From Anaeropeptidivorans aminofermentans (lineage in GTDB: Bacteria; Bacillota; Clostridia; Lachnospirales; UBA5962): a stretch of DNA of 64,000 nt. The notes under the pieces are model-generated. The model was not told the DNA's origin. It saw nothing but the letters and a program-made list of their open reading frames with translations, and searched no databases. The DNA lies in the NCBI RefSeq assembly GCF_940670685.1, contig NZ_OW711693.1:1054001-1118000 (forward strand). Direction: 5' to 3'. Made by a program: the position numbers and the translations under genes. This document shows, piece by piece, positions 36,195 to 62,838 of the stretch; positions within the stretch are counted from its first letter, which is position 1; the number at the start of each line of letters is the position of its first letter.

Positions 36195-36274
36195 ACCGAT
36201 TTATTAATTTCCTATAAGCAAAATATATTTTCTATGGAAAAGTTTAAAATCTGCTATGATATGAGGTGGCTGAT

Positions 36275-36978
36275 TTGCCGGATAAAGAAGAAGCAATGAA
36301 AGAAACCCTTTTAAAATCCTATTTTTATCATCATGGCCTTTTGCTGTGCAACGAAAATAAAGAACTGCCGTCTCTTTCTTCCGTGGGCGGTGATTGGAAC
36401 AGCATCGTTATTATGATAGAGCAGGGGGAAATATTTTACAGTAAGCTTTATAAAGGCAGAGTAACCTATTTATCACAGGATTTTTATGCCCAGATAAAGC
36501 CTTTTCGCCAGCGGCTTAATACCGTATCCCCAATAAGCAGAGATATCTTTGATTTTCTAAACAAAAAGGAATATGCCGATACAGCTGAAATTAAAAATAT
36601 TTTTATGCTCTCCGGCAAAGAATTTCCAAAAGCCATGGACGAGCTATTCAAGGAGCTTTTATAGTAAATTTTATATAAAGAAGTAGCAAAAGCCTATTCC
36701 CATCAGGTTAAAAAATACGGATTTCCTTCGGAAACGGTACATTTTTGAACCTGTGTAAATATACGGCTTTGCTACTGTTTAACTTTAAATTTACTATAGT
36801 TACTGCCATTAAAAGAAAAAGCACAATGAATATAAATTGGAGCTCATTTTATTGGGGAACCTATACAACATGGGAAAATATGCACCCCCTACCGGAAATT
36901 GAAGTTTCAGAAGCAGCCCTGAAATCTTTTATCTCAGGTCTTTTGACAGATAGGCAGATAAACAGGCTTTTAAAGTAA
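36275..36978 (+). pseudogene. gene of unknown function split by a MITE-A insertion
   Basis: The N-terminal part (TTG 36275 after GAGGTGG, or ATG 36296) runs MKETLLKSYFYHHGLLLCNE.. to KAMDELFKELL and stops at TAG 36662-36664, a codon supplied by the MITE terminus. After the element the frame resumes VTAIKRKSTMNINWSSFYWG and ends GLLTDRQINRLLK at 36978. Deleting 36662-36798 (element plus one TA) gives KELLVTAIKRK in frame, so this was one protein of about 190 aa. I do not recognise its family; the middle resembles a winged-helix (SPISRDIFDFLNKKEYADTA). Confidence 0.82.
36660..36798 (-). repeat. MITE-A copy 1, inserted in a coding sequence at TA
   Basis: 139 bp including the TA on both sides. 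Terminal inverted repeats TATAGTAAATTT and TAAATTTACTATA. The reverse complement matches copies 43310-43449 and 51618-51756 over almost the whole length (shared core GTACCGTTTCCGAAGGAAAT). TA duplication is what IS630/mariner-type transposases leave. Confidence 0.9.
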
Positions 36979-37093
36979 AGAAAGGCATTCTATTTGGCTG
37001 AAAAATTAATTTGTAGTAAGTTGCACCTGATTTCTATATCTGTATTGCAAAGGCAATGGATCTATGGACGAAATTTATATGGAGGGCTTTAGC

Positions 37094-37573
37094 ATGAATA
37101 AAAAAATCGAGTCAATTGAAATAAACAATAGAGAAGCGGCAGAAATGACTGCTTCATTACAGGATAGTAAAGTTTTGGATGCCGGTCCCTTCTATCATGG
37201 CACAAAAGCCGATTTAAAGCCAGGGGATTTGCTTGCGCCCGGATATAGTTCCAACTATGGTGAGGGAAAGAAAGCCAATTACGTCTATATGGCAGCAACC
37301 TTAGATGCGGCCATATGGGGTGCAGAACTTGCAATGGGCGATCGCCTCGGCCGTATTTATCGTGTGGAACCCACCGGTATCTTTGAAAATGATCCTAATT
37401 TGACAGATAAGAAGTTCCCGGGCAATCCCACCAGGTCCTACCGTACAAAATATCCCTTGCGTATTGTAGGCGAGGTCTTGGAATGGGAAGGCCACTCACC
37501 GGAAGTACTCCAGAAAATGCGAGAGGGTCTTGAGGAACTTAAACGTCTTGGCATTGAAGCGATAAATGATTAA
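37094..37573 (+). CDS. arr: rifampin ADP-ribosyltransferase
   Basis: Inactivates rifamycins by NAD-dependent ADP-ribosylation. 159 aa, about 20 longer at the N-terminus than classical Arr. The core is unmistakable: GPFYHGTKADLKPGDLLAPG, YVYMAATLDAAIWGAELA, GRIYRVEPTGIFENDPN and NLTDKKFPGNPTRSYRTK. The NAD-binding H-Y-D-type residues fall in FYHGT, YMAATLD and DPNLTDKKFPGN. ATG 37094 has GGAGGG about 7 nt upstream; GTG/ATG codons further up do not. It follows the MITE-split gene and stands alone; no integron or IS flanks it. Confidence 0.94.
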   Translation: MNKKIESIEINNREAAEMTASLQDSKVLDAGPFYHGTKADLKPGDLLAPGYSSNYGEGKKANYVYMAATLDAAIWGAELAMGDRLGRIYRVEPTGIFENDPNLTDKKFPGNPTRSYRTKYPLRIVGEVLEWEGHSPEVLQKMREGLEELKRLGIEAIND

Positions 37574-43309: not shown

Positions 43310-43449
43310 TATAGTAAATTTAAAGCAAAATAGGAGCAAAACCGTATATTCGTGCAGGCTCAAAAATATACCGTTTCCGAAGGAAAATCTGTGTTTTTGA
43401 GCCTGCCGGGAATAGGCTTTTGCTACTTCCTCATAATAAATTTACTATA
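43310..43449 (+). repeat. MITE-A copy 2
   Basis: 140 bp, TATAGTAAATTTA to TAAATTTACTATA, with inner arms AGGCTCAAAAA and TTTTTGAGCCT. Roughly 85 percent identical by eye to the copy at 51618. A partial second element with TTTACTATA follows to about 43535. Confidence 0.88.
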
Positions 43450-43535
43450 AAATATAGTCTTGCCTGCGGCAATCTGTGTTTTTGAATCTATAGTGAATCG
43501 GTTTCATTATTTCTTTATAAGAAATTTACTATACA

Positions 43536-58362: not shown

Positions 58363-58575
58363 TATAATAAATTTAAACAGTAACAAAACAGTGTATCCCT
58401 TGAATTCATGTAAAATAGTAGCATTATCAATTTGCTTATACCCTCTGCAGCCAAATGCTTATTGGAGTATAAAAGCAAATTGACTATATATAGGCTCAAA
58501 ATGTATCGTTTTCTGCAAAAACACGTATTTTTGAATCTTTAGTAAATAAATTTTAGTTACTTCTTTGAAAGAAAT
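58363..58575. repeat. MITE-A relic interrupted by a CAATTTGC element
   Basis: Degenerate MITE-A ends at 58363 (TATAATAAATTTAAACAGTA) and 58510-58575 (AAAATGTATCGTTTTC..TTTGAATC..). Inside, 58424-58490 is ATTATCAATTTGCTTATACC..TATAAAAGCAAATTGACT, a copy of the CAATTTGCTTTT family. A clear insertion of one element in another. Confidence 0.65.
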
Positions 58576-62679: not shown

Positions 62680-62838
62680 TATACTTATAATAAATATCTT
62701 AAGTTTTTGGCAATTTGTAAGCCTGTAACCCCTTTTTAAGTGAGCGTTTTCTTATGGTTATCAAACTTATTTTTGTTTGGTAACCATAAGCCTGCTGAGA
62801 ATAGGCTTTTGCTGCTTCTTCATAATAAATTTACTATA
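62680..62838. repeat. composite repeat with a MITE-A right end
   Basis: Right half GAATAGGCTTTTGCTGCTTC and TAAATTTACTATA (62826-62838) is MITE-A. The left half instead carries TTTTTAAGTGAGCG and the palindrome TTATGGTTATCAAAC / GTTTGGTAACCATAA (about 62755-62790). A chimera or nested insertion. Confidence 0.6.

Follow-up and report, generated by a model that had tools for sequence, protein, structure and literature searches.

Two short open reading frames follow each other in the window, by which we mean the whole analyzed stretch of 64,000 nucleotides from Anaeropeptidivorans aminofermentans (contig NZ_OW711693.1, positions 1,054,001 to 1,118,000), and a small repeat element, MITE-A, lies between them. 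This arrangement raises the question whether the frames are two neighboring genes or the remains of a single gene into which the element has moved. We hold with high confidence that a MITE inserted at a TA within an intact, single-copy AlkZ-related gene, and that it was moved in trans, most likely by an IS630-type transposase.

Reading frame and homologs of the interrupted gene

Both halves are encoded on the same strand and in the same frame (Table 1). The upstream frame starts with TTG at 36275, an in-frame GTG being also present at 36266, and it ends AAG GAG CTT TTA TAG, where the TAG at 36662-36664 is located inside the left terminal repeat of the element. Joining position 36661 to 36799, which takes out 137 bases and keeps one TA, gives GAG CTT TTA GTT ACT GCC (E L L V T A) and a continuous frame of 191 codons from the GTG or 188 codons from the TTG, terminated by TAA at 36976-36978. 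When the junction is moved by 1 base no useful spanning frame results, and a shift of 2 bases yields a frame of 89 codons only. Neither half contains a further stop or frameshift; the empty site expected with one TA is CTTTTAGTTACT. The first-pass annotation had placed a 139-bp MITE-A copy between two halves of one coding sequence, had assigned the end of the first half to the TAG of the terminal repeat and had predicted that removal of the element and one TA restores KELL/VTAIKRK in frame (the slash marks the junction). Its coordinates and element ends are correct, and both the stop and the restored frame were borne out.

It had also proposed a search for an intact homolog spanning the junction, and four were found in other bacteria. 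A whole-genome search revealed an intact frame of 198 codons in genome G020, and three further homologs came from scanning the species-genome collection: one from a goat-rumen MAG of the Clostridia (55% over residues 8-191, gap-free), one from Blautia schinkii DSM 10518 (44% identity) and one from a Bacillota MAG (38% identity, cut by the contig end). All four pass through the junction without insertion or deletion: our joined KELL/VTAIKRK corresponds to QELL/VTAIQRD in the goat-rumen MAG, to KELF/ITAVAKE in B. schinkii and to KKLM/ITVLERG and KNLL/ITVLHGD in the two remaining homologs. Had homologs of the first half ended at this position and the second half belonged to another family, as the first-pass annotation had considered, the split would be a misreading; instead the two halves, taken singly, find the same proteins, and in the correct order. 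Against the goat-rumen MAG protein, the N-terminal half shows 54% (E = 2e-49) and the C-terminal half 56% (E = 9e-24).

By its profile score the interrupted gene is assigned to the AlkZ-related family (PF24741), a family name that does not by itself demonstrate glycosylase activity. The joined protein reaches 35.9 bits and the G020 homolog 42.7 bits at a Pfam gathering cut-off of 26.5 bits. Comparison with the homologs places a conserved WSSFYWGTY..WE block in the C-terminal half. A search of the strain's own genome found no second intact copy of the AlkZ-related protein. The annotation is corrected accordingly: what was listed as two small ORFs is a single AlkZ-related gene that has been broken.

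Table 1. Location of the broken gene, the inserted element and related features (window positions unless a contig or locus is named).
Feature	Location	Strand	Basis or remark
N-terminal half of interrupted AlkZ-related gene	36275..36664	+	ORF list; homologs extend beyond; PF24741
MITE-A copy	36660..36798		139 bp with both TA; perfect terminal inverted repeats of 12 bp; close to a palindrome over its whole length
TA target duplication, left copy	36660..36661		frame and homologs allow only 2-bp TA
TA target duplication, right copy	36797..36798		frame and homologs allow only 2-bp TA
C-terminal half of interrupted gene, 59 codons and stop	36799..36978	+	ORF list; homologs
Rifampin ADP-ribosyltransferase homolog (Arr), gene after the broken one	37064-37573	+	PF12120, E = 2e-48
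MITE-B examples	G000:C1:30501-30630 (L053); 665392-665521 (L064)
MITE-C sites	30458; 58477-58488; L035-L044 at 1501	+ (30458); - (58477-58488)
Hybrid D repeat sites	about 62717-62838; L005, L016, L021, L038, L053, L058

The inserted element, its ends and its family

The MITE-A copy starts with TATAGTAAATTT and ends with AAATTTACTATA. It folds with about -43 kcal/mol on either strand (z about -6.8), contains stops in all six frames and carries no transposase gene; a search against Rfam gave nothing significant for it. Within the window the 12-mer occurs 12 times at ≤1 mismatch compared to 1.83 expected, a count reached by 0 of 100 shuffles. Both exact 12-bp ends were found 95–125 bp apart at 84 places genome-wide, with 0 for the reversed control pattern, which establishes the high copy number. 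These places fall into two length classes, and among the 64 listed of the 84 most are the 139-bp MITE-A. The 36 MITE-A copies that were aligned are mostly 138–140 bp long and mostly 90–97% alike. Because the window copy shows few differences (6 from the consensus, 4 from its nearest relative, 1 of them unique) it appears to be a recent insertion for this family. Short, bounded by terminal inverted repeats, free of a transposase gene, present in many uniform copies and accompanied by a target-site duplication, the element has the features by which a MITE is recognized. When the joining procedure was applied to 63 distinct exact-ended copies, only the window copy turned out to split a recognizable gene. 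The other joined frames of more than 100 codons were one of 117 codons that is not gene-like (L006) and one that is an ordinary gene with the element in its upstream region (L079).

Since TATA stands at either end of the exact-ended copies, these alone are compatible with 0, 2 or 4 duplicated bases. A single split gene with intact homologs settles this point and fixes the element ends, because the frame and the gap-free homologs allow only TA: keeping 0 bases of the ambiguous TATA leads to a frameshift, keeping 4 leads to TAG. At the protein level, with homologs at 36–55% identity, the evidence establishes a 2-bp TA duplication and a net insertion of 137 bp. The first-pass annotation had taken the arrangement as proof that the element arrived after the gene existed, with TA duplication and with precisely known ends. 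All three points are supported, but proof is too strong a word for a comparison with homologs of this similarity rather than with an empty site in DNA. The family member most similar to the copy in the window sits within an older hybrid MITE (L005 1409-1680); read as a second empty site, it leaves a joined target one base longer than the family consensus and so is not a clean one.

Other small elements in the genome resemble MITE-A to varying degrees. MITE-B, about 130 bp long and by our reading accounting for 17 of those 64 listed places, shares the exact TATAGTAAATTT and AAATTTACTATA ends and differs in its inner sequence. MITE-C starts with TATAGTMAATTTGCTTTT and typically ends with ...TTCGAGTATA, the two ends being unlike each other; it was detected at 160 sites at ≤1 mismatch (0 in the control), often directly upstream of genes. 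We also considered TATAGTMAATTTGCTTTT as the termini of a full-length element and rejected this, as the ten loci of this genome that were read contain short elements next to host genes and no transposases. The hybrid D repeat of about 120 bp combines the right end of MITE-A with a different left half (GTAAGCCTGTAACCCCTTTTT..GTGAGCGTTTTCTTATGG). Positions 43310-43533 of the window hold a MITE-A copy (43310-43449) and, after it, a half element ending in a second AAATTTACTATA at 43522-43533, an arrangement that is either partially tandem or nested.

Outside this genome the MITE element had no match in the four genomes carrying the intact gene. Nor was one detected in 390 further genomes drawn from the class or in viral contigs, plasmids or phages, collections from which records very near the source genome may be missing.

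Mobilization of the element and fate of the gene

The non-autonomous palindromic MITE inserted at the TA between the L and V codons, whereby the TA was duplicated and the net gain was 137 bp. With the TAG at the end of the element, translation stops after ...KELL, and the 59 C-terminal residues with the WSSFYWGTY..WE block are lost. The gene is clearly interrupted and probably dead, because its conserved C-terminal part is cut off; a loss of function would follow from this. The element most likely moved in trans by means of a Tc1/mariner-type (IS630 family) transposase recognizing TAGTAAATTT ends and inserting at TA.

TA duplication is a hallmark of IS630/Tc1-mariner elements, and MITEs driven by them show TA duplication, short A+T-rich ends and no coding sequence. 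Since the duplication is typical of this group, we infer mobilization by IS630/Tc1-mariner, which fits the TA duplication seen here. A search for a transposase of this kind with matching terminal repeats elsewhere in the genome had been suggested by the first-pass annotation. No full-length one was found in the genome, which is a single contig: DDE_3 (PF13358) and DDE_Tnp_1 (PF01609) gave no match and NF033545 gave sub-threshold matches only, of which the top three lie in IS3-like genes. Another of these matches is an IS630-like HTH fragment (L051 1369-1703; G000:C1:1262367) that lacks the catalytic domain and has no TATAGT ends nearby. The fragment is a relic of an IS630-like transposase and shows that such elements once entered the genome. 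Helper loss commonly follows MITE expansion, and the likeliest history, we infer, is that the family spread with a helper that later disappeared or persists in other strains.

If the two frames were independent neighbors, the element would simply occupy the space between two genes, and the frame would be kept across the junction by chance. This would agree with the behavior of the family as a whole, in which a recognizable gene is split at only 1 of 63 exact copies and insertion outside genes is the rule. Intact homologs crossing the junction nevertheless refute it, as both halves match one protein in four other genomes, in order and gap-free across the junction, and share strand and frame; we give it practically no credence. 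Very improbable, too, is a tolerated insertion, with the halves expressed as two pieces, the C-terminal one from a start inside the element, and some function kept. The halves are indeed free of further stops and frameshifts, an ORF of 77 codons that starts with TTG inside the element continues in frame into the C-terminal half, and in Rickettsia function survives some repeat insertions into genes (PMC3049150). However, with a copy that appears young within its family the lack of decay says little, and promoter-like sites around the junction, like promoter or terminator sites in the element, are no more numerous than expected by chance. A disrupting insertion is the reading we prefer.

Regarding the transposase, it is unlikely that the family was moved by one outside the IS630/Tc1-mariner group or by one of extrachromosomal origin. 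The missing PF13358 match in a single-contig genome with 84 exact-ended copies would be in line with such a source, but PF01609 is absent too, the duplication bears the IS630/Tc1-mariner hallmark, an IS630-like HTH relic is present, and helpers are commonly lost once MITEs have expanded. Distinctly unlikely is a broader version in which MITE-A, B, C and hybrid D, with their TATAGTMAATTT ends, were all moved by a TA-duplicating transposase that belongs to an undescribed family or is supplied only extrachromosomally. The TATAGTMAATTT-ended group occupies well over a hundred sites and, in the genomes sampled, was seen in no other lineage. An IS630-type transposase acting in trans is retained as the most likely mover.

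Comparison with known systems

RUP is a MITE of Streptococcus pneumoniae that inserts at TA and whose proposed mover is IS630-Spn1 (PMC2229807). Like MITE-A, it is a short A+T-rich hairpin present in about a hundred mostly intergenic copies, with TA at the termini, insertion at TA, stops in six frames and insertions that split genes (PMC2229807, PMC3049150). RUP insertions disrupt several pneumococcal genes, among them one that had been entered in the annotation as two CDSs, and a DNA alkylation repair gene of pneumococcus is interrupted by a BOX element (PMC3049150). RUP and MITE-A are likened by description, with 107 bp and 9-bp terminal inverted repeats in the former and 139 bp and 12-bp repeats in the latter. 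RUP furthermore has a resident IS630-Spn1 with similar ends, whereas none was found in the present genome.

A second parallel, again drawn by description, is Chunjie-1 of Geobacter uraniireducens, which disrupts a phosphate uptake operon: as for MITE-A, a functional gene region is disrupted by a single copy of a family that otherwise lies between genes, although Chunjie-1 is reported to measure 178–235 bp and belongs to another phylum (PMC10969869). The Correia/NEMIS elements share with MITE-A the terminal TA, the terminal inverted repeats and the disruption of coding sequences, which in Neisseria is strain-dependent (PMC2229807, PMC10969869). They differ in their 24-bp terminal inverted repeats and their host, and the 107-bp Correia form provides open frames that are fused in frame to genes, whereas MITE-A stops the frame at once. 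Gene-splitting MITE insertions are already well described, RUP being the direct precedent, and the case in the window is a cleanly documented example of an otherwise ordinary event.
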